From Parietaria judaica (taxonomy: Eukaryota; Streptophyta; Magnoliopsida; Rosales; Urticaceae), in the NCBI GenBank assembly GCA_954871525.1, contig OX940864.1, positions 23,988,001-24,052,000 of the forward strand: a stretch of DNA of 64,000 nucleotides, written 5' to 3'. The position numbers and the translations under genes are program-made. Position 1 is the stretch's first letter; each line of letters begins with the position of its first letter. Under the pieces are notes generated by a model. That model was not told the origin of the DNA and did no database searches. It saw nothing but the letters and a program-made list of their open reading frames with translations. Positions 3,890-52,196 of the stretch are shown piece by piece.

Positions 3890-5740
3890 AAATGCCAGAT
3901 GTTAATCCCATTGACTCAGGCAAATAAGACCAAGATAGGCTGGATATTGATCCCAACGACTCGGGCAAACAGACTGAGAAATGTCGAATCTTAATCCCGC
4001 CAACTCAGCAACAAAGAATGAAATAGGCCAGATCTAAATCCCGCCGATTCAAGCACATAAATTGAGAAACACCGAATAACATATCTTTGACATATGTTCG
4101 AAACTTTAAGACGCTTAGGCGCGAACATCGGCGAAAGACCAGAACCAGATTCTGGTATAAGTCCGGGATCGTAAGACGCTCAGGCACACACACCGGAAAA
4201 AGCTTGGGGGGGGGGGGGGTTGAGACGCTCAAGCGCGATCTTTGACTAAAGACCGAGTAACATATCTTCGGCATAAGTCCAAAACTATAAGAGGTTCAGG
4301 CACGAACATAGGTGAAAGACCAGAACCAGATTCTGGCATAAGTCTAGGATCGTAAGACGCTCAGGCGTAAACACCGGCAAAAGTTTAGGGGGTTGAGACG
4401 CGCAGAAGCAAATTCTGACTTAAGACCAAAAAACATATCTTCGGTATAAGTTCAAAACTGTAAGACGATCAAGCGCCGATATTGACGAAAAATCAGAACA
4501 AAATTCCGGCATAAAGTCCGAGATCGTAAGACGCTCAGGCACAAACACCGGCATAAGCTCGAGAGGTTGAGACGCTCAAGCGCGAACTCCGACTAAAGAC
4601 CAAATGAAATATCTTTGGCAAAAGACCAGAATCAGATTCTGGCATAAAGTCCGGGATCGTAAGACTCTTAGGCGCAAACACCGACAGAAGCTCAGAGGAT
4701 GAAGATGCTCAGGCGCGAACACCAACTAAAGACCGAATGACATATCTTCGGCAACAAAGTCGAGAAAGGATGGATCTTAACCCCGCCGACTCAGGAAATA
4801 AAGTCCGAGAAAAGCCGGATCTCAATCTCGCCGACTAAGGTAACAAAGTCCGAGAAGGCCAGATCTCAATCCCTCTGACTCAAGCACAAAGACCGAGAAA
4901 GACCGGATTTTAATCATGCCGACTTAAGCACAAAGATCGAGAAATGCCATATCTCAACCTCGCCGAGTCAGGCAACAAAGTCCGAGAAAGGCCAGATCTC
5001 AATCCTGTCGACTCAGGCATAATGACCGAGAAAGGCCGAATTTCAATTCCGTCGACTCAGGCACAAAGCCAAGAAATGCCAGATCTCAATCTTGCCAACT
5101 TATGCAATAAAGTCCGAGAAAGGCCGGATATCAATACCGCCGACTCAGGTAACAAAGTCCGAGAAATGTCGAATCCCAATCCCGCCGACTAGGCACAAAA
5201 ACCGAGAAAGGCCGGATCTTAATCACGCTGACTCAGGTACAAACTCTAAGAAAGGCCAAATCTTAATTATGTCGACTCAGACACAAAGCCGAGAAAGGCC
5301 AGATCTCAATCCCGTCTACTAAGGCACAAAGCCAAGAAAGACCTGATCTCAAGCCTGCTGACTTAGGCAACAAAGTCCGAGAAAGGCCAAATCTCAATCC
5401 CACCGACTCGGGCAAAGAGACTGAGAAATATTGGATTTTAAGCCCACCGACTCAGGCAACAAAGTCCGAGAAAAGTCGGATCTCAATCTCGCTTACTCAG
5501 ACAACAAAGTTCGAGAAAAGCCGAATCTCAATCGCGCTGACTCAGGCAACAAAGTTCGAGAAAGGCTGGATCTCAATATTTCTTACTCAGGGCATAAATC
5601 CAAAAAGACCGAATCTCAATCCCACCGACTCAGGCAAAAAAGCCGAGAAATGTCGGATCTCAACCCTGCCGACTCAGGAAACAAAGTCCGAGAAAAGGCC
5701 GGATATAAATCCCACCGACTCGGGCAAACAGAATGAGAAA
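3890..5740 (+). repeat. 45-bp tandem repeat array with an interposed ~130-180-bp repeat block
   Basis: From about 4750 to 5740 a 45-bp unit repeats roughly 20 times (core ACAAAGTCCGAGAAAGGCC, then AGATCTCAATCCCGCCGACTC). A few units also lie at 3890-4030. Between them, 4080-4740 holds a longer unit whose landmark AGATTCTGG recurs at intervals of about 130-180 bp. A run of G's sits near 4205-4219. The same 45-bp unit appears inverted at about 14895-14990 inside the non-autonomous gypsy-like element, so the array probably descends from that family. ORFs reading the array (peptide RISIPPTQ) are artefacts. Confidence 0.8.
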
Positions 5741-17604: not shown

Positions 17605-17755
17605 AGATAAGCTAACAATCTCGAAGCGGAGGAGATTATTAGCTTCGTTTTTGGCCGTAGGTGCAAAGACCTAAATGAATCTTCGCACCTACGGCCATTT
17701 AGATCTTCGCACCTATGGCCATTTAGGTCTTCGCCGTAGGTGCGAGGACCTTAAT
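17605..17755. other. Conserved hairpin pair, copy 1 (also near 19793-19940 and 21531-21680)
   Basis: The first hairpin pairs GCTAAYAATCTC with GAGATTATTAGC around a 9-base loop. Immediately after comes a cluster of GTAGGTGC / GCACCTAC inverted words (four to five occurrences in ~100 bp) that can form alternative stems. Both are kept in all three tandem units. Whether a small RNA is made is unknown. Confidence 0.6.
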
Positions 17756-18920: not shown

Positions 18921-21900
18921 CACTTTATAAAGCCATAAAAAAATTACAAATCTAAAATGTAATATAGTTATTTTTATAAAATCATAAGTTACATACAAAA
19001 CTAGAAAATACTTGCCAAAATAGAAAAACAAATGGAATTATTGCCTTTACTATATAAATGCAAAGCAAAAGTAAGGAAGGAAGGGAAACAATAAATTATT
19101 TTTTTTATGTATTTTAACAATTAAGCCATAATGAGTATGACCCTCATTGTATTTTTTATCAATAGAGGTTTATTGAACATATATGACATAACAATACGGG
19201 TTGTCTCTATATTCTGAAATTCTCAAGCTAGCAAGCGCTTCCTTAAGGTTTTGGAGGTACCGTATGTAATTTTTTTTTTTTTTTTGCATTTATCTATTTG
19301 TTTATAATTGACACATATAGCTTTATTATGAAACTTGAATTTTAATTTATTTGAATTTCCTTTTTTTTTGCTATTGCGAATCATCATGTGAGATAGTTAA
19401 AGAAGCTATAAACCATTAAAGACGAGACCAAGTGTACATGTATATAGATTTTAGATGTTAATTAGTATTTTAGAAAAATGTACGTGTGTGTATATGCACT
19501 AAATTTATGTGAAGTATAAGATGTTTAGTATTGGACGTTAATATATGCACATAGATATTATATTTATTTTAACTAGTAGTAACCGAAGGACGGTGACGAT
19601 ACCGTATCGATTCTAAACGTTTTGAAATCTATTAATTTTTTGTACTTGCATATTTTAAATTCAATAATTTATCATAAATGATCAAATATGTTGATAAATT
19701 TAGTTAGAACTATTTACCAAATTTATTACTTAAATATTAAATTTTAATTAAAAATATAGATCAACATCCACATTAAATTCAAACGAAGTCAAGATAAGCT
19801 AATAATCTCGAAGCGGAGGAGATTATTAGCTTCGTTTTTGGCCATAGGTGCAAAGACCTAAATGAATCTTCGCACCTACGGCGATTTAGATCTTCGCACC
19901 TATGGCCATTTAGGTCTTCGCCGTAGGTGCGAGGACCTTAATGGCCATGGAGACCTCTTCAACTGCTTGTGCAAGTTCTTTATTTAACACGCGTACGTCC
20001 GAGACAGTATAGTTATGTAGCTTAAATAGATGAAACCTCATCAACTGTTGAATTTGGAAAGATAAAATAAGTATGAAAACCCAAGAAAAATAATCAATAT
20101 TCATACTTTTCCTTGAAAAAAAGGCATGACTGAAAAAATTCATGACCGAGCTTTGCAAGTTATTTTATTTTATTTTAAATTCGCAATCTTTTCTAATTAT
20201 TTTAATTTGAGGAAGTCACGAACATTTTAATTTAATTTTTTTTTATATAAAACTCGAATCTTACAACAAATTTTAATACCCAACTATATTAGTTACTAGG
20301 TCCTTATTAAGCAAAAAATTCAAAAAGAACCATGATCCGTGATATATATAAAATACATGTAAATGCATATAAAAGATTTCGACCAAGAAATAAAGAAAGG
20401 ATAACATCTAAGCAAGAGTTAACACCATAACATAAAATGTAACTCAGTGAATTTCAAATCTTTTTTTTATTACTATGTGGTATTCGTACATGAGTTTGTA
20501 TTTCTAACCCGATGCTGACTTTTTTTTTTTTTTTGTCTCTATCAATCCTCAGAATAATACTAAGTTAAAAATATAATCCTATTAAAATTAATGGAGAACT
20601 TAAAGAAGGATTGTATATCGATAAAAATACTAAAAATGAAGTCATATTTTCACTTTATAAAGCCATAAAAAAATTACAAATTTAAAATGTAATATAGTTA
20701 TTTTAATAAAATCAGAAGTTACATACAAAACTAGAAAATACTTGCCAAAATAGAAAAACAAATGGAATTATTGCCTTTACTATATAAATGCAAGGCAAAA
20801 GTAAGGAAGGAATGGAAGGGAAACAATAAATTCCTTTTTATGTATTTAACTATTAAGCCATAATGAGTATGACTCTTCATTGTATTTTTTATTACTTATA
20901 AATAGAGGTTTTTCATTGAAAATATATGACATAAATATACGGGTTGTCTCTATATTCTGAAATGTTCAAGCTAGCAAACGCTTCCTAAAGGTTTTGGAGG
21001 TACGGTATGTAATTTTTTTTTTTGCATTTATCTATTTGTTTATAATTGACACATATAGCTTTATTATGAAACTTGAATTTTAATTTATTTGAATTTCCTT
21101 TTTTTTTTTTGCTATTGTGAATCATCATGTGAGATAGCTAAGGAAGCTATAAACAATTAAAGACGAGACCAAGTGTACATGTATATAGATTTTATATGTT
21201 AATTAGTATTTTAGAAAAATGTACATGTGTGTATATGCACTAAATTTATGTGAAGTATAAGATGTTTAGTACTAGACGTTAATATATGCACATAGATATT
21301 ATATTTATTTTAACTAGTGGTAACCGAAGCGCGGTGACGATACCGTATCAATTCTAAACTTTTTGAAATCTATTATTTTTTTGTGTACTTGCATATTTTA
21401 AATTCAATAATTTATAATAAATGATCAAATATGTTGATAAATTTAGTTATAACTATTTACCAAATTTTTACTTAAATGTTAAATTTTAATTAAAAATATA
21501 GATCAACAGCCACATTAAATTCAAACGAATTCAAGATAAGCTAATAATCTCAAAGCTGAGGAGATTATTAGCTTCGTTTTTGGCCGTAGGTGCAAAGACC
21601 TAAATGAATCTTCGCACCTACGGCCATTTAGATCTTCGCACCTATTGCCATTTAGGTCTTCGCCGTAGGTGCGAGGACCTTAATTGGCATGGAGACCTTT
21701 TCAACTGCTTGTGCAAGTTCTTTATGTAACATGCGATCGTCCGAGACAGTATAGTTGTAGCTTAAATAGATCAATCCTCATCAACTATTGAATTTGGAAA
21801 GATAAAATAAGTATGAATACCCATGAAAAATAATCAATATTCATCCTTTTCCCTAAAAAAAAAAGGCGGTATGACTGAAAAAATTCATGACCGAGCTTTG

Positions 21901-30593: not shown

Positions 30594-31384
30594 ATGATAA
30601 TTTCGAAATTAATTATCTAGATCCAACGTCCTAGATTAATCTTAGACTGATCTAATGGATCAAATTAATTTGGGATAAAAATCAAATATTCTAAGACTTA
30701 GTAAAAAGCCTAATTCGATTTTATCTATATCATTATCTTCGAAATATATATTATATATATAATTAATTAATTTTCAATCCGACGGTAAAGATTAAATCTT
30801 AAACCGATCTAACGGATACAATTAATTAGGTCAAATTCGAAAACCCTAAGCTTGGTCACCAAGCTACTATTTTTCAAATTAGGGTTAGGTCAAAAATCAA
30901 TCATCTCAATCCTACGGTTGATATTAAATCATCTCCGATCTAAAGGATAAGATTGATTTTAGGGTTTTTGCCAAAGTACCAAACTTTAGGTACTTATGCC
31001 GCAAATATTAAACCCTAGCTAGATCAAACTCGTATGGACTAGATCATGCAGGCCCATATCGATTTACAATATATATATATATAATTAATTAAATATAGGG
31101 CTTATTAGCAAAAGCCTCAATAAAAATCAAACTATTTAAAAAAGTACTCAAGGTTTCAATAATCTAAATTATACTCATTTTATACTTTGTTTTCCCTAAT
31201 TACCCTCAAATCACTTTTCTCCCTCTTCTCCCTCTTCTGAGCACACCAAAGAGTCGCACCGACTCCATTTCACTAGGTTCCTCTTCTTCGCATTCTCGCG
31301 AATTCTCTTCGATCTTTGTTTTATGGGATTCTCCGATTGACTTTGAATGTAGAGTTTTTGTTTTGGTTCTCATTCGCGGCGGTC

Positions 31385-31725
31385 ATGGGCAGTCGCGTTC
31401 TCGGCCTCAATCCCAGCCACTCTCTCCTTCGCCTCCGACCACCTCGAGCTCCGGCGACCTCGTTTCTTCATTCCAGAGGTGACTATTCCGTTTCCCTTTT
31501 GATAAATTCGAGATATAATGCAATGTCCGTGAACAAATTGGTGTTGGGTATAGGTGGATTGAGGTGTGAGAAGATTGCGTGTTCGATGAAGAGCTACAAG
31601 TTATCGGAGCTGTCCTCGCCCGAGCTCGAGAGCCTCAATGCCCGGCCTCGAATCGATTTCTCCTCCATTTTCACCGTATGGTGTTTAGGTCCGATTCAGC
31701 CACTGCTGTACTGAATCAATGGCCT
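31385..31725 (+). pseudogene. HISN8 (fragment): Captured 5' end of a histidinol dehydrogenase gene
   Basis: [20 protein letters not shown] looks like a plastid transit peptide. After a short apparent intron (GT near 31479, AG near 31553) comes [20 protein letters not shown] and [10 protein letters not shown], the start of mature plant histidinol dehydrogenase, the last enzyme of histidine synthesis in plastids. The match stops near 31680, well before the catalytic core. It is a gene fragment carried by the Pack-MULE, in plus orientation. Confidence 0.7.
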
Positions 31726-32639
31726 TCTCAAGGTAAGAAGTTTTGATGCTCGTCTTTTTTCCTTGCCTTGATGTTGAAATCGTTTATTCATCTTATGAGG
31801 AATTCAGAGATGCTGCCATTGTGGAGACCGACAATAGAGACGTTTTACAGACAAGTATTGTAAGTTTCACTGATTCATTTTCGGAACTTTGATCCCGGTT
31901 TATTAAATACAAGCTTAGAAATGCATAATTCGAGTGTATTGGATTGGGTTCGTAGCTCTGCAGGGAAAAATTTGCTCTCTTTGATTGCATTGGCATTGAA
32001 CTTGGATGCGAACTTCTTTGAGAAAGTTGCTGGGTTGGATAAACCGACAGCGTTTCTTTGCCTTTTACCCAAAATTGGGCTTTCATTGATTTGGGGTCGA
32101 GGAATTGACGGTTGACGAGATCGAGGAATCGAATTGGGGTTTCATTGAATTGAGTCAATGAATTGAAGGTCGGCGAGGAATCGGATAGTCGTGCTCTTTT
32201 TTTTTTCTTTTTTTTTTCTGAAGGAACGGATTTTTTAAGGCTTAATTCAAGTGTCGACGAGTTATGCTCTTCGGCCGATTAATATGTTGAGTTTATTTCG
32301 GTGAACTTGTATTTATAATTGGACTTTAAATTCCTTTAGAGGAGAAAGCTAAGGTTTGTTGTTATAGGTTGTACATTACATGATTTTTACTTTGTTAAGC
32401 TATTTCAAAAGTGTATGTTTTTAGATTTTATTCTATATATTTAAGCTACTTTTATTTTTCATGAATGTTTTCTTTAGAAGTCCAATTAGGTTCTATAAAA
32501 AAAATGTCTAAGTCATATAATTTGATCTCTCTCTCAAATATTTGACTAATGTATACAATTTTTTAACATATAATTAACCAATTGGTCTAATACAAATTTA
32601 CGTAATTATACTTACATATATAATTATAGTGGAAAAGAG

Positions 32640-33685
32640 AATTATGTAATAAAAGTTACAAAGTGTAACTACAAAAAAATAGTTATAATTACAATAGCGT
32701 AAATGTAAAGAGAATTACACAGGTGTTAAATGTAATAATAACACGGGTCCGAGGGATAGGGACAGCGAGGAAATCATGGAAGCTGTAACTTCAGTTACGA
32801 TAATCTAACTTCGGTTACGAAAATGTAACTTCGGTTACGATAATGTAACTTCGGTTACAAAACTTTGATTCCAATTAAATTAGTGTAACCACATTTACAT
32901 TAGTGTAACTCTAATGATTGTGGTCATAGTATTACATAATTGTGGTCATACTATTACATAACCATATATGACTAGAATTACGAAAGTGTAACTCCTATTA
33001 CAAAAGTGTAGCACCGGTTACGGTTATGTAACTTGAGTTACAAAAGTGTAACTTCAGTTACAAATTTTTTTTTAATACTTCCAAATTAACTCACAAAGCA
33101 CTAAATTATTATTTGAACAAATATATTGAATTTGTAACTCCAGTTACGTAAGTGTAACTCCAGTTACGATAATGTAACTCTAGTTACGATAATGTAACTT
33201 CGGTTACGATAATGTAAATTCGGTTACAAAACTTTAATTCCAATTAAATTAGTGTAACCACATTTACATTAGTGTAACTCTAATGATTGTGGTCATATTA
33301 TTACATAATTTTGGTCATATTATTACATAACCATATACGACTAAAATTACAAAAGTGTAACTCCTATTACAAAAGTGTAACACCGGTTACGCTTATGTAA
33401 CTTGAGTTACAAAAGTGTAACTTCAGTTACAAAAATTATTTTAATACTTCCAAATTAACTCCCAAAACACTAAATTATTATTTGAACAAATATATTGAAA
33501 TCGTAACTCCGGTTACAAAAGTGTAACTACATTTATATAAGTGTAACTTCAGTTACGATAATGTAACTTCGGTTACAAAAGTGTAACTTCGGTTACAAAA
33601 ATTTAATTCCAATTAAATTAGTGTAACCACATTTACATAAGTGTAAGTCTAATGATTGTTGTCATAGTATTACATTGTAAGTTCC
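32640..33685. repeat. GTAAC/GTTAC palindrome array in the Pack-MULE
   Basis: Dense copies of GTAAC-N4-GTTAC, for example GTAACTTCGGTTAC and GTAACTCCAGTTAC, separated by about six bases (often GATAAT or AAAAGT). Two ~370-bp super-units with the same order of landmarks (AATTAAATTAGTGTAACCAC, then TGATTGTGGTCATA) are repeated, with a third partial copy. The word is the same as in the 41935-52187 MULE. Confidence 0.95.
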
Positions 33686-33702
33686 TATTGCAAAACGCAG
33701 AC

Positions 33703-34359
33703 TCAAAACGCTTGTGAAGCGGAGCCGAGAATATGATTTGCCTTTTCCGGTCTTCCGTTTTCGGTAAGAGTCTGGTGAATGTTGGGAAGAATGCCTCTAT
33801 TGGTATCACCATTTACAGCACTTGCACCACCACGCAAACTCGACAAGTCTTGCATCATTTCCCTCCACGCCGAGTCAGAGAATTTCGAGACAGAGGTTTC
33901 ATTGTTAACGCTCTTCAACGGCGTAGCTTGCCCGGATTCCTCCGTCCTGCTAGGGTTCTTCTTTGAGAACGGCATGATCAATATGAACTCGCCGCTGCTC
34001 GCATTCAGTGCGTTAAGCTTACTTAACTCCCTGAAGGACACATTGTGAGACTCTCCAGCTTCAAACGATGATCGAAACATACAACAAACCAATACATTAT
34101 CAAAACAACGATCAAAGATAAGATTATAAGCATAGAAACATTGATTTGGCAGATTCGTATATGGAAACTGTAACGAGAAATGGAACGGAGAGAGAGGGCT
34201 TGCCTTGAAAAAGAGATGAAAATTGGGGAAGGTGGAGACTGGAGGGAAACTTTTCTTGAGAAGAAGCTTGAGGTCTTCGATTGTGGAATCGGTGGCGAGA
34301 GAAACGGTGGTGGACTCGCCGGAGAATGTACGGACGAGGAATCTCTCCGGCTCTGCCAT
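33703..34359 (-). pseudogene. Captured 5' end of a helicase-like gene with an N-terminal ubiquitin-like region
   Basis: ATG at 34359: MAEPERFLVRTFSGESTTVS, then TIEDLKLLLKKSFPP and NFHLFFK, a ubiquitin-like start. An apparent GC-AG type intron (AAG-GCAAGC near 34203) follows, then NASSGEFILIMPFSKKNPS and SDSAWREMMQDLSSLRGG. The wording resembles the N-terminus of plant HRQ1-type RecQ-like helicases, recalled from memory and not certain. No helicase motifs are included. It lies next to the GTAAC array on the minus strand. Confidence 0.5.
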
Positions 34360-34682
34360 GGCCGTCGCTGGCAACAGAGGGTGAAATTTGGCGCCTCCGA
34401 ATGCCTCAAAAGAGTGCCCACCGGAGAGGTTATGAGCCTCCGAATGCCTCTACCGAATGCCCCTCCGCCCACCGGCGTCGCCGACTGCTCCGATCAGCGG
34501 TGAGGCTTCGATCTCCTCTGCGGTTTCGGCGCCAGCAAAGAGTCCTCATCGGCGGGGTAGTCGACGGCGGGTCCTCCGCCGACGTGGGGGTCTGGATCCA
34601 AACCGATCGCTCACGCAAGCTCGTAGTCTTCTCTGGTGTTCAGAGTGAAAGCGATTTGAGAAAGCACTTGAGCTCGTCGGCC

Positions 34683-34960
34683 ATGGAAGATCTCAGATCC
34701 AAGCCCGAGCAGAACGAGTTCCAGAGCTCCGTCGCCGGCGCCGGAATGCAGGATCTCCGGTGCTACAGCGCGTCGTAAGCGACGGCGACGGCGGCGAACA
34801 ACGATGCGAAGCTGAAGAAGGGGAGATCGGCGAAGAGCTGGAGCTTCAGCGATCCGGAGTCGCAGAGGAAGAGGAGAGTGGCGAGCTACAAGGTGTACAC
34901 CATGGAAGAGCCGCCGGTGATGGAGGAAGGCGTGAAGGGGCCGATGAGGAGAGAGAGGGA
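34683..34960 (+). pseudogene. Captured DUF3511 gene with a nonsense codon
   Basis: ATG at 34683, MEDLRSKPEQNEFQ, then MQDLRCYSAS, a TAA stop at 34776-34778, and in the same frame KLKKGRSAKSWSFSDPESQ and RKRRVASYKVY. This is the diagnostic DUF3511 pattern (CYSASYA, KSWSF-DPE, KRRVASYKVY) of small plant proteins with unknown role. The stop replaces the usual Tyr after CYSAS (TAC to TAA). The C-terminal WIKDRY part is missing; low-complexity GA-rich DNA follows. Confidence 0.8.
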
Positions 34961-36630
34961 GAGAGGGAGAGCAAACGAAGCTGAAGAAGGTGTACACCAT
35001 GGAAGCTGAAGAAGAATACAGCTATTCGATGAAGATGGTTACGATATATTAAGGGTATAATTGTCCAAATAACACCAAATGAGAGTTTCTTTAATTATGA
35101 TAAACTTTTGAGGGTTTTTTAAAAAAGTTTCACCTAAATTGGGTATTTTGCTAAAAAGCCCTTAAATATATATATTCTTATTAATATAAATCCATTAATT
35201 ATTAATAAGATATTAATAATTAAATCCAAATAATTAAATTATATTAATAATTCCTTATCTCAATATCACACATAAAAATGTCTTGGTGCCACAACATCAT
35301 TTAAATTCGTGACATGTGATTTAATTTCATAGTTTATCGAACCAAGCACAAACTTAGAAAATCCATAAATCACAAACCGTGAGTCGAAATGACTTTGTTC
35401 AAAAAGCAAAGTTGCTTATAATTTAATTTCCAACAACATGGTGCTGATAGAAATTCTAAATTATAACTTTCTTTTATCAGTTAATTTCGTGTACCAAGAT
35501 ATGGTACTTTTGCCACGCTGACGATAAACCTATCTGACGTCTGCCACAGACCTTTCAGTTTTATAAGTCTAGCCAAATGATTAAAAATTATCCAGAATGT
35601 ATTTTAATCACATACGTATCATCCGTTACGGAGCTATCCTGGGGACCATGGACCCGTATCACTTAAGCTCCAACGAACTGCTAGTTGTTCGTCAAACCTC
35701 GAAGTGATTCCACTATAGACCCGAGGCTGCACTCTTTAGTGATACGGTATATATTATTCCCTTTATATCAGCAGGGTGTCCATTGATACAATCAAATTCG
35801 GGTTATTGATCTTTCACTTGATGATCCACACACGAGCAGGCGGTTTCTCCCGTTATGCCCCTCATTGCATTTTCAACCTTGACTCAGTCAATAATATTAT
35901 GAGTGACCCACTTATGGTTTCGATTCATAAGTTGCGCACGGGTACCTCTCACTTCTCACCACCGACAATCAAGGGAATCATCATCACTCTGAAGAGAGTT
36001 GTGTGATGCCCATGTCTATGATCAAGCTACCCTTACTGCTGAATATCATGTTCCCAAAATAATAGTGTTGGGAACAACGGTAATTTATTGTGTTCTTTAA
36101 CGGTTAAATCAAAGAACAATAAAGCCAGCAGCTCGGACTCAAGACCACTCAGGACTTAGATCGAATATCCATTTGATCATCTACCATCTACTAGTGACTC
36201 AAATCCAAGTTATCAGTGACGGTCTTATATGATAACTTCCGGAGTTTAAGTCAGGTCCAGTCCAGTATGAAGACACTTCATACTTAATGCACTTCTAGTG
36301 AGTGTGACACACACAAAATCCAGAATAGGATTGGCACTTAGTCACATTAATGACCTTATACGATTAATGGGCTCCCACCCAGTTAATCAGGTCACGGACA
36401 TTTTAAGTTCATTTATTATGATTATTAATTCTTCCTCACATTGACTCTGCTGTGATAATAATAACATAATTGCATCCTTTATGAACTAAGGAAACAAACA
36501 TTCTATTTTACTCTACCAGAAACTATTATAAGATTAACATAATAAGTATCATCTTTATTCAATGACATATCATAATCTTTTACAAATGGATAAAATATCT
36601 TGTTTAAGGACACATATGTCCAACAGCTTT

Positions 36631-40559: not shown

Positions 40560-41934
40560 GATTTTAAGTGATAAGAAATTTGGTGCTGAATTTATGGTAT
40601 AATGGATGAGTGTGGGATATGATTAATTGAAGAGAAGATAAAGAGAATTTGGAGTAAGATAAGGGTGAGATAAATGTAAGTGTAAAAATGTGAGGGGTGA
40701 ATTTTATTCATCCACTTAGGGGGTATTTATACTAAATTGAGAGCATGCAATTGTTGACTAATGTTAGCAATGTATAGTAAACACAAATAATTGGTACTTA
40801 TATGAGCATTTCAATTCTTATCCATAATAGTTAAAAGTATTTTGAAAAGTAAAATAAAACTCCAAATAATATTTGTTTGAAAAATAAATTTAATTTTTAG
40901 ATATCTTTAATTTTATTTAATTATTTTTTATTTAATTTATCTAATAAAACATTGTTAATTTTTGTATATTAAATTTCACAATTTTTATTTTCATTAAAAA
41001 ATATCAAAGATAAATATATTCAAAATATTTATCTATAAAATAGTATGGGGATTAAAGACCTATATGTTAATTAAGTTAATAATATAATTGAGCAATTGGC
41101 TTTGAGGATAGTTTTTTTTCTTAAATTTTGAAAAGAACATTTCAAAACTAACCTAAATAATATCAGCCAAAAAAATTATTTTATTTTATTTCTTTCTACA
41201 CTGTGATTCCTCGAATCTAATAAGGAGCAATTGTTATTGTAGAATCTTGAGGAGTGAATTGTTGTGCAGGGAATTACAAGACACAGTTCAAATTAAACAA
41301 AAAAAAAAGAAGTAATTTTACATGTTAATTCATATTTAAAATAAATTATAATATTTTGACTTATTCTCCACTGCTATTATAAATGGAGGACCATACCCAT
41401 TGTTGAGTTTGATTTTGATTAACATCAAGATACTTTTTAATGTCGACACAAAATCAAATGAAGTAATTTGTTTTATATTTTCGAACAAATGTAAAAATAA
41501 TAGTTGTGTGCTAAAAAGTGCATTTGGTGTAGGTAATTCGATCATAATTCACAATACACAATTTAAAAAATATATTTTTAGCATTATCATCAAAATCTGT
41601 AGTAATATTCTTTCGTCAGTGCGAAAATCGCCATACTATCGATTCCAAGACTTACAAAAGTTCTAAATTCTTAACAAATTTAAATTCTTAATATTTTTTC
41701 TACATCTTGCTATTTCATTTTCAGTTATATGTATATATATATATATATATTTTGAAATTATAAACATATATATTTATATTGGCTTAACAAACATAGCATA
41801 ATAATATCCAAATACAATTCTGATGGAGGGCCGTTCAACGATTCTCCTATATATATATTTAGATAAACTCTTCAAATTGAAAATAATTATTTATTTTGAG
41901 AGCAATATTTCGTTTAACCATTATTTAAAAAAAA
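40560..41934. other. AT-rich DNA, possibly the copia C LTR on its left, no gene seen
   Basis: The first ~400 bp probably belong to the copia C LTR. The rest is AT-rich with no ORF of interest. The last nine bases (TAAAAAAAA, 41926-41934) are the target duplication of the next MULE. Confidence 0.5.
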
Positions 41935-42076
41935 GGGCTTTTTAGCAAAATACCCAATTTAGGTGAAACTTTTTTAAAAAACCCTCAAAAGTTTACCATA
42001 ATTAAATAAACCCTCATTTGGTGTTATTTGGACAATTATGCCCTTAATATATCGAATCCTTCATCGTCGAACAGCC

Positions 42077-42245
42077 TTCGAAGCCTGCTTCTTCGTCGTC
42101 GAACAGTGAGCTCGATTCTTCTTCTTCACCGAACAGCTCGATTCTTCTTCACCAAGGCTTCGAATCCTGCTTCTTCGTCGTCGAACAGTGAGCTCGATTC
42201 TTCTTCTTCACCGAACAGCTCAATTCTTCTTCACCAAGGCTTCGA
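42077..42245. repeat. 82-bp tandem duplication in the MULE left region
   Basis: The block holding CTGCTTCTTCGTCGTCGAAC and ACCGAACAGCTCGATTCTTC occurs twice at an 82-bp offset, just inside the left end, in probable 5' untranslated sequence. A CT microsatellite follows near 42450. Confidence 0.85.
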
Positions 42246-43099
42246 AGCTCACTTCTCTCCGATCGAAGTCGATTCCTTCAGGTTGGTTTTTGTTTTCAGC
42301 CAAATTTATAAGTTTCGATCGATGCTATTTGGTTCAGAGATTGGATTTTCTCATTTGATTTTCTCATCCCTCGTAAGTAGAATCTCTGTGTTCGGTTTTA
42401 ATTTCGCTGAGTTCTTTTATTAATCGATTGTCTTCAGCCCAAACACTCTCTCTCTCTCTCTCTGTGAAAAGTGGACACTCTTCTCACACAGAGCGACAGA
42501 TTCAAGCTTTGAGCTAAAAAAGGAGAGTATTTGATATTCAGTTCGCCAATACCTTGTAAGTTTGATCTATCCTATATATATATATATTTCTTAAGTTTGG
42601 GGAATATGATCCGTATATGATCAAGTTTATTCGTGTATGATGATGAGCGAGCTGCAACTTTTCTAGTTTGGTTGGATTTTAATCTTGAGACAGAGTACCC
42701 AAATGCTTGTATGATGTCGGAAATTGATACCTTTGTTTGCTTGCCTTTCATTGATACCTTTTTTTAGGATTTCTCTAGGTAAAAACTCAATTCATTTATC
42801 ATGTGTCCTTTAGTATTTCTCAATCGCCAATTTGGGTTGAGTGATATTAGGAGTTTTCGAATTAAATTGTTGTGTTTTAGAGTCTGTAAACAAGAGCAGT
42901 TGGACAGTACTAACAATTCTCCCCATGTTGATAATGTCGATGAGAATGTAACATCCGGGGGCGGTTTACAGTTTCCCACTAGCCAAACTGTCCCTGTTTC
43001 AGTAGGGGTTGATAATAGTTTACCCTCGGAATCGGATATACAAGTGTCGGAAACCAGTTTGATAATCGTTTGCTAACATGGTTGAACATCACTATACAG

Positions 43100-46000
43100 G
43101 ATCGGGCGCGGACCGACACGTACAGGACGGCTATCGTGCAGCATCAGAGTTCCATAGCCGGCAAAGTAATGCAATCTTACCCGTTTAAATTCTAGTTGTT
43201 ACATAAGTGTTACTTGTAACTACAGTTACATTAGCGTAACCAAAGTTTCATTATCGTAACTGAAGTTACCTCTTTGTAACTTCGGTGTTACACTTTATAT
43301 TGTGTAGGTTCATTAATGTCGGCCTCCGAGGGATCATCAAGATCGTCGCACACTAAAAATTTGGCCAACCATGGTATATTAAGAACTCTTATTGTCTACA
43401 CAATTTAAATTCTAGTTGTTACATAAATGTTACTTGTAACTACAGTTACAAACGTGTTACCAAGGTTACGTTTATGTAATTTCACATAAATGTAACTTTG
43501 GTTACACGTTTGTAACTGAAGTTACATTATCGTAACCAAAGTTACATTATCGTAACTGAAGTTACACCTTTGTAACTTCGGTGTTACACTGTTGTAACTT
43601 TTGTAACTCAAGTTACATAAGTGTAACTGGTGTTACACTTTTGTAATTCTAGTAATATATGGTTACACTTATGTTACACTTCAGTTACCAACGTGTAACT
43701 AAAGTTACACTTAAGTAACTGAAGTTACACGTTTGTATCTGAAGTTACATTATTTCAAATATTGCAGTTATATAATAAATTTTAAAATTACTATTGTTAC
43801 AGGGCAATTCACCAGTGAAGATCTAAATAGCAGTTCATCCAACGTATTTATAGATGACGTAACTGTCGAGCATTTTCCAAAGTTGTTTGACGTGGAAAAG
43901 GGCAACATGTTCAAATCGAAGAAGCATCTTCAGAACATTATGTGCATGATTGCAATCAGAAGAAACTTCTCATTTACAACTACGAATTCTGATACATGTC
44001 GGTTTGAAATCAAATGTTCGAGTGCCGGTTGTACGTGGAAAATGCATTCTTCAACGGACTACAATGGCTCAACGACATGGAGGATAAAATCATACAATAA
44101 AACACACTCATGCGTGAGGACGGTAACCAGTACCAAGCACCCGCATGCAAACGCTTCCGTTGTAAATGAATGCTTGAAAACTGCATTTGGTGAAGAAGAA
44201 GAAGTTGAATCCATCGCTCCGAAGAAAATAATCAAGAAGATGCGAAAAGAACACGGAGTAGAAATTAGCTATTATACGGCACGGAAGGCCAAGGAATTAA
44301 CTTTAGAATCCATGCAAGGAAGTGCGGAGGATTCGTATGCAATGCTACCTAAGTATGCAGAAGCGTTAAAAGCGAAAAACCCTGGTAAAATTACTTACTT
44401 TGTTTTACTAGTTATTACCTAAGTGTAACTTGACACTACAGTTATAATAGTGTAACTTAAGTAAGTAAGTTACATTATCGTAACTGAAGTTACATTATGG
44501 TAACAAAAGTTACATTATCGTAACTGAAGTTACACTAATTTAATTGGAATTAAATTTTTGCAACCGAAGTTACAATATCGTAACCAAAGTAACATTATGG
44601 TAACCAGAGTTACATTATCGTAACTGAAGTTACACTAATGTAACTGCAGTTACACTATTGTAACTGCAGTTACAATAGTGTAACTGCAGTTACACTATTT
44701 TAACTGTAATTACACTTTTGAAACTTGAGTTACGATAATGTAACTTCGGTTACAAAGATTTCAAATATGATTAAATATAATATGTGTAACCAGTATTACT
44801 TAGCTGTAATATAAGTTACATAAAGGTAACTGCAGTTACCATTATGTAAAAAGAATTACTTTTATGTAACTACGATTACCAAATAGTAACTGAAGTTACA
44901 GTGTAAAACTTATTAACATTTTTTACTAACATTTTAATGTGCAGGTACCTATACAGCGTTTAGCTCTGACAACCAGGGTCGATTCAAGTACTTCTTTCTT
45001 AGTTTTGGGGAATCGATCAATGGATGGAAGCATTGTAGGCCTATACTATCTGTCGACGGAACATTTCTGAAAAACAAGTACAAAGGTACGCTCCTTATGG
45101 CAGCAGCGATGGATGGCGAAAATCACATCTTGCCTATCGCATTTTCAATAGTGGATTCGGAGAATCATGATTCTTGGCTATGGTTCTTTGAGCAACTGAA
45201 GATTGCTATTGGAGAGCGCGAAGGTTTATGCATCATATCTGACCGCAAAGATTCAATTCCGAGAGCGATCACGTTGGTTTATCCAGAAGCTGCTCAGGGT
45301 GTATGTAAACAGCACTTATCCAGAAATCTTCTAAGCCATTTTAAGAACTCTTCTATTGATTTTTTCTTCTCCAAGTGCGCATTGGCATGTACGAAAAGAG
45401 AATTTGATCATTATATGAAGGAGTTGTCAACGATCGATGCACGAATTGAACCGTATTTGCAAGACGTCGATCCAACAAAGTGGGCAAAATTATATAGCAC
45501 TCAAAGACGCTACGGCATAATGACAACAAACATCTCAGAATGTCTTAATTCAGTCTTGAGAGAAGCAAGAGACCGACCTATTATTTCATTGGTCGAGTCT
45601 TACAGAAAGCTCTGTCAAAATTGGTATAATAAACATAGACTAGAGGGAGCGTTGATGCGTATGAGGCTGACCCCACAAGCAGAGCTGAAGATGGATGTCC
45701 AAGAAGAATTGGCACGAACATTAATCGTAAGTGTTTTCTTTACTTTTTTTATTCATTAATTATATATACCTGCAGTTACTTTAGCGTAACTTCAGTTACG
45801 ATTACGTAGCTTCAGTTACGGTTACGTAACTCCTGTTACGCTAATAGCTAGTAGTATCTTCAGTTATGTAATGACTGTATAATCATTTTAAATGTGAAAA
45901 TATATTTGTAATTTTTCCAATATGCAGGTTGATTTTATAAATGAAAGCGAATATGAAGTCACTGATAAAGGCTCACAGTATGTTGTTAACTTGAGCTGCG

Positions 46001-46444
46001 AGACGTGCACGTGTAATGTTTGGCAAATAGACGCTTTTCCGTGTGCTCATGCTATGGCTTCATTTTGGAGGATTGGGTGTGATCCTAAAGCCTATGTGTC
46101 AATATTTTACACTAGGGAGGCTTATTTAGCCACTTATGCAGGAGGTAATGCACATTTAGATTAAAATATTCTTCATAGGATTTATTTAACACTTTATGTA
46201 TTATTATGCAGGAGGTATATATCCAAGTGGTTACGAAGCTTTTTCGGATAGCTTATGTAGCACTTCAGGTGTTCAGGACCCATTCTTTCCAGACACTTTA
46301 CCCCCCAAAGTAAGGAGGCAAGCAGGAAGACCGAAAAAAAAAAGAATTCCTTCAAACGGTGAAGAATTCAAGAAGTCACTTCATTGTGGAGCATGTGGTA
46401 AATTAGGCCATAACAAACGCTCTTGCCTTAAGTTTCCGAAATGA
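43100..46444 (+). CDS. MULE transposase (MuDR type), multi-exon
   Basis: Phase-consistent exons: 43100-43165, 43308-43373, 43803-44384, 44945-45726, 45928-46144 and 46212-46444 (stop TGA). An upstream exon in 42801-43056 (DSTNNSPHVDNVDENV) is likely but I could not place its junction, so the start is open. Domains in order: N-terminal MuDR DNA-binding/zinc-finger region (FDVEKGNMFKSKKHLQ to CRFEIKCSSAGCTWKMHSS), MULE catalytic domain with LSVDGTFLKNKYKG and IISDRKDSIPRAI aspartates, SWIM zinc finger (CTCNVWQIDAFPCAH) and a terminal CCHC knuckle (CGACGKLGHNKRSC). Introns, not exons, carry the GTAAC/GTTAC words. No disabling lesion seen. Confidence 0.88.
43195..45860. repeat. GTAAC/GTTAC arrays in the transposase introns
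   Basis: Arrays fill the introns at 43166-43307, 43374-43802, 44385-44944 and 45727-45927. Typical order is GTAAC-TGAA-GTTAC-ATTATC-GTAAC, so half-sites recur about every 10 bp and the full palindrome about every 20 bp. The exons between them lack the word. Confidence 0.95.
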
Positions 46445-46489
46445 TTTAATCGTTGTAACATTTTCGAAGGCCATTACTGTGATTATATC

Positions 46490-47690
46490 TTTACACTATA
46501 ACACAAGTTACATAATTGTAACTGACTTTACATTTATGAGATATTTACATTTATGATATATATGCTAATTAGAATTTCACTAATGTAAATGTGGTTACTC
46601 TGTTGTAATTGGAATTATTTTTATGTAACCGAAGTTACAATATGGTAACCGAAGTTACATTATCGTAACCAAAGTTACAATATTGTAACCAAAGTTATTA
46701 AATTTTTGTAACCGAAGTTACATTATGGTAACCAAAGTTACATTACCGTTACTGAAGGTACACTAATTTAATTGGAATTAAATTTTTGTAACCGAAGTTA
46801 CACTATCGTAACCAAAGTTACATTATGGTAACCAAAGTTACATTATCGTAACTGAAGTTATGATAATGTAACTCCGGTTACAATTTTTAACTGGAGTTAC
46901 ATTGTTGTAACTGTAGTTACACTTTTGTAACCGGAGTTACAATTTCAATATATTTGTTTATATAATAATTTAGTGCTTTTCGATTTAATTTGGAAGTATT
47001 AAAATAATTTTTGTAACAGGTGTTACGCTTTTGTAACAGGTGTTACACTTTCGTAATTCTAGTAATATATGGTTACACTTATGTTACATAATTATATTTA
47101 TCCAGTTTCCATCTAAAGGTACGTAGCAATAAGTTCACATAATTTGAGTTACAAAAAAGAATTTAAATTGAAATATTGTGAAAAAATAGTGACATACAAT
47201 TATGTAATACTATGACCACAATTAGGTAATACTATGACCACAATCATTATAGTTACACTAATGTACATGTGGTTACACTAATTTAATTGGAATTAAATTT
47301 TTGTAACCGAATTTACATTATCGTAACCAAAGTTACATCATGGTAACCAAAGTTACATTATCGTAACAAAAGTTACATTAATTTAATTGGAATTAAATTT
47401 TTGTAACTAAAGTTACATTATCGTAACCAAAGTTAAATTATGGTAACCAAAGTTACATTATCGTAACTGAAGGTACACTAATTTAATTTATTTTAAATTT
47501 TTGTAACCAAAGTTACAATATGGTAACCAAAGTTACATTATCGTAACTGAAGTTACATTATTGTAACTGAAGTTACATAAGTTACAAAAGTGTAACTTAT
47601 GTAACTACATAATTTAAATTCTAGTTGTTACATAAGTAAGTTATATTTATGTAACTGAAAGTAAAGGTAAACATTAATTAACTATGTAAC
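46490..47690. repeat. GTAAC/GTTAC array between the two convergent MULE genes
   Basis: The longest array, about 1.2 kb between the transposase stop (46444) and the DUF1985 stop (47823). Words such as GTAACCAAAGTTAC and GTAACTGAAGTTAC alternate with six-base spacers. A sub-unit ending ATTTAATTGGAATTAAAT recurs several times. Confidence 0.95.
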
Positions 47691-47822
47691 ATTAATTCTG
47701 ATTAAACACATGTAATCCGATAAGTAAAGGTAATAGTCATAAGAGTTTAAAAGGAAGAAAAAATAAAACAGACAAATTGGTCACAGACCGTATGTTCGAA
47801 AATGATAATGACTAAAACTAAA

Positions 47823-50800
47823 TCACACATTTGCTTTGTTCGAAGCCCTTGTAACTCTTCTTTTAAATGTCTTCATAGATGTTTCAACCTTCTCAGCTTC
47901 TTCCTACAAATATAGAAGTATGTAAGTTACTTAATTGACATAAAGTAAATGAAATTAAATATACGTAATTCAAGTTACACTTGTGTAACAAAAACTACAA
48001 CCAGAAATTAAAATTGATCACAAATGTTACCTTGTCAAGCATCTGGGTAATGCCTAAGCTGAAACTAGGACGCTCAATGGCTTTGTCAACAAGATTTTTA
48101 TCCACCTAAAAATGTAATTACAAAGAAAATATTAAACTAAATATGATTAAACTAAATATGATTACAATATAAGATGACAAGTACCTTCGTAGCCCTTGTT
48201 ATAAAAGCATCAATGAATTTGGAATCACTATCGATTTGAAGGAGTGTCTCGTCATCCAGATACGCAGATGTAACTTTTTTTGCGTCTTCTGTGGTGTCCT
48301 CAACAGGTGCCTTCTCGGCAATCTTCTTCTTTTTCGGTAGGGGAGGATTCTCACCATCCTACAAATATAAATGGTAATAACTTAATAGCTATAACTGAAT
48401 TGTTTATTTGTATTTGGAGTTACAATTAAGTAACTTACCGGCTTGGTGCATAGCCATAGTTGCATTAAGTTTAAATTACATAAGTGGAGCTATATAACGA
48501 ATATAGTGATAAATGGATTACAAATAGTACCTCTCCCAAATCCGGTGTAGTTAGATGCTCAGAGGACACTCTCGTAGTCTTTCTACGAGCACTCTTTGAT
48601 CTCTTAATTGGATCCTTCTTCGGCTGCCTGGCTACATGCTCGGTAACCTTTTCTCCCTCGGCCTACAAAATACAAATGGTGGTAGTTACATGAACATATT
48701 TACAATAAGTTTTATCGGAGTTACAATAATGTAACTGGACCAGAGTTACGGTAATGTAACTGGGGTTACAGTAATGTAACTGGGGTTACAGTACTGTAAC
48801 TGGGGTTACAGTACTGTAACTGGTGTTACAATTACTTAAGTGATGCTAAATTACAATTACATAAATAAGTTGTAAATTACATTACAATCAGTACCTTGTT
48901 CAAACCAATGTGAGACATTAGCATCTCCACTTGGTTTTTCAAGAGAACAACTTCATTCTTCATGCTAACTTGCTCAGCCTTCATCTCTTTGTTATCTTGT
49001 TTAAGCTCTGCTACTTCTTGGCGTAGCTGATCGATCGTTAAAGATGAGTCTTGCTGAGGAGCTTGTGGTGAAGAAGTAGGTTTTTGAGGAAGTTGTCTCT
49101 CAGAACAATATTCCGACAGAACACGTAGCTGTAATATTAGAAAAACAATAATAACATTATTAAGATTCCAAAAACAGTGCCATGGTTATTATAACAAAAT
49201 TAAATTGTAAATGAAGTAAAGCAATTCGAAAATACCTCAATGTCATAAAAAATGGAAGCAACCATTCTAGAGCATACTTTACCACCGAGCAAACACCAAT
49301 TCAAAATTGGTGGACCGATAGTAGAATTCACCTTTGTAGCAATTTTGGCCTTGGACCACAATGGTATAGCCTGAGCTAAGTACACTAAAATTGCAGTTGG
49401 CATACCATGAAGGTGATAGCCAGTTATCGGACTGTCGGTATTTAAACTTGCAGCAGCCTTTAACATGAACTCCTTAGTCGTTTCGTAGACAATTCTTCCC
49501 CACGGATAGGACTGAAAAGCACTAGAAGAACTGGCTAAGTCGATGTGCGCATTCTCGATTGGTTTATCCTTTGGCTTGCTGTCGATGAATGCCTCGAAGA
49601 AGTAAATGTTCACCATTTTGAGCAGCTCGTCATCATCGATATCATCGGAGGCAGAAAAAAGATCCTCAAAGTCACTACACGTAACTCTTGATGAACTACC
49701 AAACCACTTCTCTCTTATGTCTCCTCTCCTTGGGATGACGTGGGATGGAAAAGCTGAACAGTTCAAGAAGGTCGTTGCCTGAAACTCTTTGATGCCAAAC
49801 TCAACGACTTGGTCATTGAACATGAAGGTCAGGAACTCATCTTTACCCTCCACCATATGAAAGACGAGGTTGTGTAGCAGAAGATATGGAGATGTTTGTT
49901 GCGTGAAGTTGACTAGGTAACCAAAAAGTCCATTCTTGAACTTATCTAAACAAGCTGGCCGCGGAGCCAACAACTGCTCGATGTATTTGATGGTATTGAT
50001 CCGTTGATGCGTATTGATTCTAATACCGTGTCTTCTCCTTGTCAAATCTACAAGAAACTGCAATAAGATAGTGGTAAGTACAATTACATTGTAATTTACA
50101 ATCATATAACTATAGTTAAAGTTACAATCATGTAACTATACACTAACATATGAAACACTAACAGTATGTAACTGAAGTAACTATACAGTAACTATACAGT
50201 TACAATCATGTAACTGTAGTTACAGTTACAATCATGTAACTGAAGTTACAATTATGTAACAGTTACAATCATGTAACTATAGTACAGTTACAATCATGTA
50301 ACTGAAGTTACAATTATGTAACAGTTACAATCATGTAACTGAAGTTACAATTATGTAACAGTTACAATCATGTAACTGTTACATGTTTGTAACTACAGTT
50401 ACATGATTGTAACTGTAACTATAGTTACATGATTGTAACTGTAACTATAGTTACATGATTGTAACTGTAAATATATTGTTACTGTACTGTTATTGTAATT
50501 ACAGTTATGTAACTAGAATTACATAAAGGCAGTTGTAGTTACAATCATGTAACTATAAGTTACATTTATATAATTCTATTTACGTAACTGTAATACCATT
50601 TATAATTATATCTAAGTTATACAATGTAATTGGTCTTACTTTTATTTCAGCTTTGTCGTTTGATGCATCTTTGGATTCAGACATCGGTTTAGAGGAGGAA
50701 GCCTTCTCGGAATCGCCACATGTTGATTTCCTACCTAAAAGAAATTAAATGAAACATAATAAGTAAGATAATGAACCGAATTATATTGACAAACATACAT

Positions 50801-50974
50801 TGAATAATGTGAACAGTTTACCAAATAAGAAACAAATTATAAAGATATATAATTACCTGCCGATTTGCGCTTGCGCTCCACAATTTTGCATGAATCTGTG
50901 GCCGCTGCCTGTGGCTGAGCCGCAATTGTTGCCCCGGTTTCTAGCGCTGCACTTGTTGCCTTGATTTCTACCAT
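47823..50974 (-). CDS. DUF1985-domain protein of the MULE, candidate VANC-like anti-silencing factor
   Basis: Eight exons join without a frame break: 50857-50974, 50640-50734, 49236-50057, 48895-49128, 48531-48662, 48185-48358, 48031-48105 and 47823-47903. That gives 1731 nt, 576 aa, ATG at 50974 (MVEIKATSAALETG) and a TGA stop. After the second exon every exon is a whole number of codons. Exon 1 ends in a basic patch (ERKRKSAG). Exon 3 holds the DUF1985 domain, with its hallmark SYPWGR (about 254-259). Exon 4 forms a coiled coil (IDQLRQEVAELKQDNKEMKA). Exons 5-8 are rich in Lys/Arg (IKRSKSARRKTTR, LPKKKK), suited to DNA contact or nuclear import. As I recall, VANC proteins of Arabidopsis VANDAL elements carry this domain. 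Binding of the GTAAC word is inferred. Confidence 0.85.
48700..48850. repeat. GTAAC/GTTAC array in a DUF1985 gene intron
   Basis: Lies in the intron 48663-48894: GTAACTGGGGTTACAGTA-type units about 20 bp apart, five to six in a row. Confidence 0.93.
50058..50639. repeat. GTAAC/GTTAC array in the large DUF1985 gene intron
   Basis: Intron between exons 2 and 3. Units such as GTTACAATCATGTAACTG repeat, with some palindromes spaced by one base (GTAACAGTTAC). The first intron (50735-50856) lacks the word. Confidence 0.93.
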
Positions 50975-51839
50975 CTTTACACTGTACTTTGCACAATAAT
51001 TGATCAAGTCTTAGGTTAGGGCACAATTTGCAAACAAAAATCCTTAATCTGGAAACTATTTTAAGAAAGCCACTACGTACAGAAAACACATCCAAAGAGT
51101 CTCAATAAAACATGTTTGATAAAAGCCTAAAAGGATTCTAAGAATGCAGATTGAGAGGAGTGAAACAGAAAGGAAGCTATGCTTATGTCGGTTTTTTCAC
51201 AGTTAAGTTAATAGATTGAACTTTGAGCGAGCCACGGAACTTTAAGACCAAAACAGATTTGATCAAACACATGCGAAAAGGTTTTTGAGCAATCTGGTTT
51301 GCTCTTGATTAAACAGAATACATCGATTTTATCAACCTTCTAGTCTCATCACAAAATGATGCTTGAAACGAACAGAAAGGACTCACGCAAAGTTGCTCAC
51401 CTCTATTCACGACGTCGTAGAAAAACGAAACTGTTACAGTCGTATGTCTTATTTACATTGGACAAGCTGATTTACAAAACTATTAAACAGGTATTTAGAT
51501 TAATATATCTCGTATTTGTTTCAGTCCTAATATTTGCAACATTTTTGTAACGATTTCGTGTCCAAATGCATTTCAGCTCCAAACAGTTGCAAGTGATGAG
51601 ATGGACAACAAGCTTCTCCAACTATATTCTTATGAAAACTCGAGAAAACCCTTGAGATTTAGGGATATAGTTTATCATGAAAATGCACGGGTACTAATTC
51701 ACGACGAGAATTCCAGAGATTGCATCAGCAAAAACCCCAACAAAATTCAAGCATTGAGTGAGCGAGCTTACCTGAAGAAGTTGCTAGTGAAGGAGGTCGC
51801 GATTTGCAGAGTTAGGGCTCGAGGAGAAAACGCAGAGGA

Positions 51840-52080
51840 GAGCTCGAGATAGAAGGCAGAGTTAGGGCACGAGAGAAGAGCTCGAGGGAGAAGGAGCTCG
51901 CGATTTGGAGAGAAGGCAGAGAAGGAGCTCGCGATTTGGACAGTGAGAGAAAACGAAAGCTAGGGCAGAGCTCGCGATTTGGAGAGAAGGCAGAGAAGGA
52001 GCTCGACAGTGAGAGAAAACGAAAGCTAGGGCAAAGCTCGAGGGAGGAGAAGAGGGAGAAAGGGAGAAAAGTGATTTGAG
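51840..52080. repeat. GA-rich tandem repeats near the MULE right end
   Basis: Two to three diverged copies of a ~75-bp unit (GGAGAGAAGGCAGAGAAGGA, then AGTGAGAGAAAACGAAAGC). They mirror the short repeats at the left end. Upstream (5' side) of the DUF1985 gene; no ORF of interest. Confidence 0.7.
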
Positions 52081-52196
52081 GGTAATTAGGGAAATTAAAG
52101 TTTAAAATGAGTATAATTTGGATTATTGAAACTTTGAGTACTTTTTTAAATAGTTTGAATTTTATTGAGGCTTTTGCTAATAAGCCCTAAAAAAAA

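Follow-up and report, generated by a model that had tools for sequence, protein, structure and literature searches.

The window analysed here is a 64,000-nucleotide stretch of the Parietaria judaica genome (contig OX940864.1, positions 23,988,001 to 24,052,000), and it contains a 10,253-bp Mutator-like element (MULE) with two convergent predicted genes, one encoding a MURA transposase (+) and the other a protein with a DUF1985 domain (-). Between and within these genes lie many copies of a palindromic word, GTAAC-N4-GTTAC. Both gene models were predicted by us from the sequence. The element and its genes are laid out as follows, in window coordinates.

41926..41934, no strand assigned: target duplication TAAAAAAAA, left copy (from the sequence)
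41935..52187, no strand assigned: whole autonomous VANDAL-like MULE, delimited by its ends and the 9-bp TAAAAAAAA duplication
43078..46444, + strand: MURA transposase gene, six exons, 655 aa (gene model; Pfam MULE, SWIM, DBD_Tnp_Mut)
43078-43165, 43308-43373, 43803-44384, 44945-45726, 45928-46144, 46212-46444, + strand: MURA exons (gene model)
47823..50974, - strand: DUF1985 (VANC-like) gene, eight exons, 576 aa (gene model, Pfam, VANC21 match)
50857-50974, 50640-50734, 49236-50057, 48895-49128, 48531-48662, 48185-48358, 48031-48105, 47823-47903, - strand: exons of the DUF1985 gene (gene model)
49236..50057, - strand: main exon, carrying the DUF1985 domain (gene model, Pfam)
52188..52196, no strand assigned: target duplication TAAAAAAAA, right copy (from the sequence)

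An earlier annotation made from the letters of the window, hereafter the sequence-only reading, had described an autonomous MULE with precise ends and a 9-bp target duplication, and TAAAAAAAA was indeed found on both flanks; the duplication is exact but A-rich, and so is weak evidence taken alone. The left end reads GGGCTTTTTAGCAAAA, and the right end is its near-inverse, matching at 15 of the first 16 bases and at 36 of 50 ungapped. VANDAL MULEs, which form group 45, are described as having a transposase with SWIM and CCHC zinc fingers, a 9-bp target duplication and absent, short or degenerate terminal inverted repeats (PMC6446971). The terminal inverted repeats found here fit this description, and both elements of the window (41935-52187 and a sibling at 31098-35161) carry a 9-bp target duplication. 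The MURA SWIM domain passes its Pfam cut-off and a C-terminal CGACGKLGHNKRSC is CCHC-like by eye, without a Pfam match; we scored the two together as the VANDAL SWIM and CCHC feature. MULE (E=7.2e-22), Transposase_mut, SWIM and DBD_Tnp_Mut all scored above their cut-offs, all introns of the model are GT-AG, and no stop interrupts the 655 aa. A possible 5' lesion, raised by an upstream frame that stops near the start codon, was rejected; because the 5' stretch of another copy in the genome (L068) aligns to that of the window copy gap-free (466 of 470 bases), no lesion is seen in the transposase of the window copy, as the sequence-only reading had also judged.

The eight exons of the DUF1985 gene join in frame, as previously described, into a 576-aa protein with GT-AG introns throughout and no internal stop. 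The DUF1985 assignment, on whose failure in Pfam the sequence-only reading would have given up its proposal, held: PF09331 was matched at residues 143-265 with 64 bits against a cut-off of 35.1 (E=1.9e-17). The comparison with VANC proteins that it had suggested was also positive. A profile of three families, built from the window protein and two relatives, matched VANC21 (PDB 9lnj, 9lnk) over positions 146-315 with E=1.9e-11, and the window protein alone, used as a single sequence, matched it with E=2e-4. Judged by its sequence, the DUF1985 protein is a relative of VANC21. Homologues in other plants were retrieved from Acer (two) and Ulmus (two), none of them close.

The element holds 57 copies of the word GTAAC-N4-GTTAC, where Markov simulations of orders 1 to 4 (100 runs per order) gave means of 0.03, 0.06, 0.19 and 1.52. 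The clusters of the word are distributed as follows, with no strand assigned to any of them.

43216..43729: word clusters in MURA introns 1 and 2 (2 and 9 words)
44480..44899: word cluster in MURA intron 3 (11 words)
45786..45839: two words in MURA intron 4
46625..47576: word cluster between the two genes (22 words)
48756..48829: word cluster in an intron of the DUF1985 gene (4 words)
50210..50454: word cluster in an intron of the DUF1985 gene (7 words)

None of the 57 words overlaps the 3,699 exonic bp, in agreement with the earlier statement that exons avoid the word, although the words sit in a few clusters and the avoidance is thus weaker than 57 independent draws would imply. The accompanying statement that non-coding DNA is filled with the word was too broad: clusters are present in four of five MURA introns, two of seven introns of the DUF1985 gene and the intergenic stretch, while the remaining introns and both terminal arms (1,143 and 1,213 bp) contain none. 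Much of the word content lies in 20-bp tandem arrays, with units of about 26 bp near 50.2 kb. Of the 212 gaps that separate successive half-sites, 63 measure 9 bp and 74 measure 11 bp, giving a half-site recurrence of about 10 bp, and a period of 10 fits pairwise half-site distances up to 105 bp best among nine periods tried.

Elsewhere in the window, the word occurs 16 times in the sibling and not once in the other 49,683 bp. Equal frequency at unrelated loci, which the sequence-only reading had named as counting against it, was looked for by this count, and by those at the other loci below, and not found. The word is not private to the window copy: the 20-bp-spaced pair GTAACN4GTTACN6GTAACN4GTTAC occurs 11,163 times in the 539-Mb genome, compared with 0 for a reversed control. 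Four loci near 1.54 Mb of C1 (L001-L004) hold 28-29 GTAAC words in 3 kb, with spacers unlike those of the window element, and the nearest listed DUF1985 match is about 0.4 Mb away.

The sibling and another copy show how the word fares in non-autonomous elements.

31098..35161, no strand assigned: sibling element, non-autonomous, which shares the ends of the window element, holds 16 words and a fragment captured from a host gene, and has a TTAAATATA duplication

The ends of the sibling are 95% and 93% identical to those of the window element over 141 bp, and it has its own 9-bp duplication, TTAAATATA. Searched for MURA and DUF1985, it gave nothing below E=1.3, and its captured fragment matches DUF3511 (E=1.4e-9). 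In its MULE ends, 9-bp duplication and captured fragment the sibling resembles Pack-MULEs; unlike them, it keeps word arrays, as the target of an anti-silencing protein would. In L068, read over 5 kb with its right end lying beyond, the left end is identical for 205 bp, MURA residues 1-34 abut residues 607-655 with the middle gone, and 52 words are present. Non-autonomous copies thus retain the presumed target word after loss of the transposase. Word number varies widely among copies, from 3-12 in loci of 3.6-3.8 kb to the 52 in 5 kb of L068. A search of the genome with the left 141-bp end gave 40 matches (from the best 40 of 288 candidates), and 10 of the 40 listed, the window copy included, are identical across all 141 bp, which suggests recent movement. 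Compared against 57 DUF1985 positions, 18 of the 40 listed have such a position on the element side at a distance of up to 14 kb, and the other 22 have none; since some of the 22 have a MURA match nearby, they are best described as copies without a detected DUF1985 rather than without all genes. Both elements of the window also contain a 22-bp repeat, ATTGTGGTCATACTATTACATA, and its inverse (32917-32961, 33286-33330 and 47196-47244).

We then compared words across DUF1985 loci. The search of the genome with the DUF1985 protein yielded 86 exon matches (from the best 76 of 721 candidates). All 30 loci with a DUF1985 identity of 64-99% (L005-L034, L005 being the window copy) contain the GTAAC word, 3-12 times each, and the more distant loci read (37-49% identity) contain none except for one in L048. 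Instead, L035 has 37 GTAATTA and L036 has 8 GTAAA-N4-TTTAC, both with 0 GTAAC words. When words with a gap of 4 were pooled by set, leaving out L037 and L047 (inside L035 and L036) and L051 and L053-L066 (repeat GTAAC loci), the letter x in GTAA-x-N4-x'-TTAC was C=222, T=1, A=0, G=0 in the GTAAC set (30 loci), T=18, A=2, C=0, G=0 in the GTAAT set (8 loci), and A=24, C=1, T=0, G=0 in the GTAAA set (7 loci). The counts are not statistically independent, since the copies of each set are related; 3 of the 24 GTAAA words are repeats because the loci L045 and L046 are identical, and two of the eight GTAAT loci (L038, L044) lack the exact word. Each set's own word peaks at gap 4 among gaps 0-15, with 51, 6 and 2 at the runner-up gaps for GTAAC, GTAAT and GTAAA, and order-4 Markov means (100 runs) are 6.05, 0.59 and 0.43. 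Of the GTAAC word itself, the 8 loci of the GTAAT family hold no copy and the 7 of the GTAAA family a single one. Ten kb of the element containing L043 (L067) gave T=7 and A=1, and L041 and L043 each have one GTAAA word, at the same position in both.

In a tree of the DUF1985 exon (42 of the 45 loci, with the short L034, L040 and L044 dropped), the GTAAC loci are united in a single, fully supported group. GTAAT appears twice (L037-L039 and L041-L043), and the GTAAA groups (L045-L050 and L052) stand beside L041-L043. The fork next to L041-L043 is not settled by the tree, and the number of letter changes is therefore at least two, or three unless L052 joins L045-L050. That related families keep the word with one letter changed suggests a protein and a target evolving together. 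Between the three families, MURA identity is 67, 56 and 63% and DUF1985 identity 48, 40 and 53%, so that MURA is the more conserved protein, as VANA is in VANDALs (PMC5735166).

The closest known system is VANDAL21/Hiun with VANC21 in Arabidopsis thaliana (PMC5735166, PMC10398659), likewise a MULE encoding a transposase and a DUF1985 protein, with many copies of a short word, often in tandem, in its non-coding DNA, and with protein homology between the window protein and VANC21. The word read by VANC21 is YAGTATTAY, and VANC proteins are annotated with DUF1985 and DUF287 (PMC5735166); the sequence-only reading had given both DUF1985 and the word correctly. VANC21 sites lie in non-coding DNA, and VANC proteins can strip methylation from chosen sequences, with the regions that give specificity left to future work in 2017 (PMC5735166). 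Differences are that YAGTATTAY is arrayed in one orientation (PMC5735166), whereas the word of the window element is an inverted repeat, and that a VANB-like third gene was not seen in our two-gene model. YAGTATTAY occurs three times in the window element. In reverse complement, the C-type word of VANC21 becomes GTAATACTR, which begins with GTAAT, and kinship with the GTAAT family is possible but unproven. Also in Arabidopsis thaliana, VANDAL6 has a related VANC with a word of its own, which shows specificity to change from family to family, and the VANC6 words AGTTGTCC and AGTTGTAC (PMC5735166) occur 0 times in the window element. The KIU genes are Ulp1-bearing VANC genes of MULEs without terminal inverted repeats, VANC-type and motif-specific (PMC13317346); a Pfam scan of the 576-aa protein gave no Ulp1 match up to E=1, which sets it apart from them. 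As with VANC genes, the DUF1985 gene lies in a MULE whose non-coding DNA holds family-specific words. Reportedly, VANC systems occur across eudicots with gain and loss of DUF1985, DUF287 and Ulp1, and motif density, helical periodicity and protection of non-autonomous copies are said to have been described as well (Sasaki et al., EMBO J, 2022). If so, the 10-bp recurrence and the non-autonomous copies are expected, and what is new comes down to the palindrome together with the switch of one letter. No paper on the GTAAC word was found in the VANC, VANDAL and DUF1985 literature searched, outside which most subscription papers lie.

Altogether, the element is probably a VANDAL-like MULE that brings its own anti-silencing system of the VANC type, a reading that draws on its anatomy, the homology to VANC21, the family-specific nature of the word, the higher conservation of the word relative to the spacers (see below) and the persistence of the word in non-autonomous copies. 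The DUF1985 protein of 576 aa would bind the inverted repeat GTAAC-N4-GTTAC, probably in dimeric form; half-sites in introns and between the genes, spaced by about 10 bp or close to a turn of the helix, would serve as its target. Once bound, the protein would remove or block DNA methylation of the element and of word-bearing non-autonomous siblings, and the family could thereby be expressed and move. The VANC-like self-protection proposed by the sequence-only reading is supported in substance, and that the protein reads the word is something we continue to infer.

A bolder and more tentative suggestion, to which we give somewhat less than even chances, is that DUF1985 proteins as symmetric dimers read a fixed scaffold, GTAA-x-N4-x'-TTAC, with families kept apart by the letter x (C, T or A) alone, a one-letter lock-and-key anti-silencing code within one genome. 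VANC systems are already known; as far as the searched literature goes, the new parts are a site that is palindromic and a switch of one letter while the scaffold stays fixed. This genome holds related DUF1985 families whose presumed sites are one base apart in a constant palindromic frame, which comes near to a designed experiment on VANC specificity, and the VANC-type system would be extended to another plant genome.

Several observations weigh against the anti-silencing reading. Words and DUF1985 gene are inherited together, so their co-variation alone is no proof of reading, and word binding, dimerisation and loss of methylation through the DUF1985 protein are deduced from sequence. The dimer proposal rests on coiled-coil-type Pfam matches near residues 375-420 that are weak and below their cut-offs, and an AlphaFold model of the DUF1985 main exon with four distant homologues was poor (mean pLDDT, the predicted local confidence, 46.8). 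Positions of the DUF1985 exon that the two GTAAT groups have in common and at which they differ from the two GTAAA groups number 5, and two control groupings gave 7 and 3, so the exon shows no signal of specificity residues. GTAAT and GTAAA words are sparse and lie outside 20-bp arrays; GTAAA pairs at 20-bp spacing number 3 in the whole genome, so the tandem layout is not common to the GTAAA family. L048 (C5, ~9.97 Mb), a broken locus, contains one GTAAC and three GTAAA words; its DUF1985 stretch shares 93% DNA identity with the GTAAT-type L041, and another of its stretches is closest to the L036 MURA. The locus may be a mosaic of GTAAT- and GTAAA-type elements, and otherwise counts against strict pairing. 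The CpG ratio (exons 0.83, internal non-coding DNA 0.79, terminal arms 0.97 and 0.85) is slightly under the 0.99 of the remaining window, which does not favour lasting freedom from methylation but is not decisive.

Of the other explanations, the one that fares best, though we consider it unlikely, is that the word is a site of the MURA transposase itself, for cleavage, synapsis or self-regulation, and that the DUF1985 protein has another job. MURA is indeed linked to the word just as DUF1985 is, and it too differs between families (56-67% identity), but the terminal arms, where transposase sites would be expected, lack the word. Moreover, when 78 of 147 MURA rows were scored for a DUF1985 match within 15 kb (among the best candidates of the DUF1985 searches), one was present in 31 of 36 rows with at least 80% MURA identity, 11 of 13 with 55-79%, 0 of 23 with 43-51% and 0 of 6 below 40%. 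The one relative read from the 43-51% class, L069 (C5, ~27.79 Mb; MURA 48%), had none of the four words at gaps 0-15 in 6 kb, the GTAAC word included; because best candidates only were scored, a remote DUF1985 could remain there. L069, with no detected DUF1985, has other open reading frames adjoining, one with a long basic tail, and may carry another accessory gene; the two that were scanned gave no Pfam call at cut-off.

We regard it as improbable that the word is a minisatellite that arose as a side effect of tandem duplication and that no protein reads, as its frequent placement in 20-bp arrays and the widely differing copy numbers might indicate. When 53 units from ten arrays (five belonging to the sibling) were aligned in register, word columns have 94% consensus (1.69 bits) and spacer columns 61% (0.72 bits), the latter lowered by pooling arrays with differing spacers; inside the two largest arrays, word columns remain the more conserved (94 versus 74% and 92 versus 78%). 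The units of about 26 bp near 50.2 kb hold words as well, and distant families keep GTAA-x-N4-x'-TTAC without 20-bp arrays. Equally improbable is that the word keeps the element active by recruiting a transcription factor of the host, with the DUF1985 protein not the reader: a 14-bp inverted repeat is a usual form of plant factor site, but a letter that changes among the families within a single genome is more readily accounted for by a reader that the element itself encodes and that changes along with it.

Two other repeats were noted in the window. A 24-bp tandem unit is the same at 17679-17734, 19866-19921 and 21608-21663, about 2 kb apart, perhaps reflecting tandem gene duplication, and positions 4750-5727 hold a 45-bp tandem repeat of about 22 copies with 73% matches.

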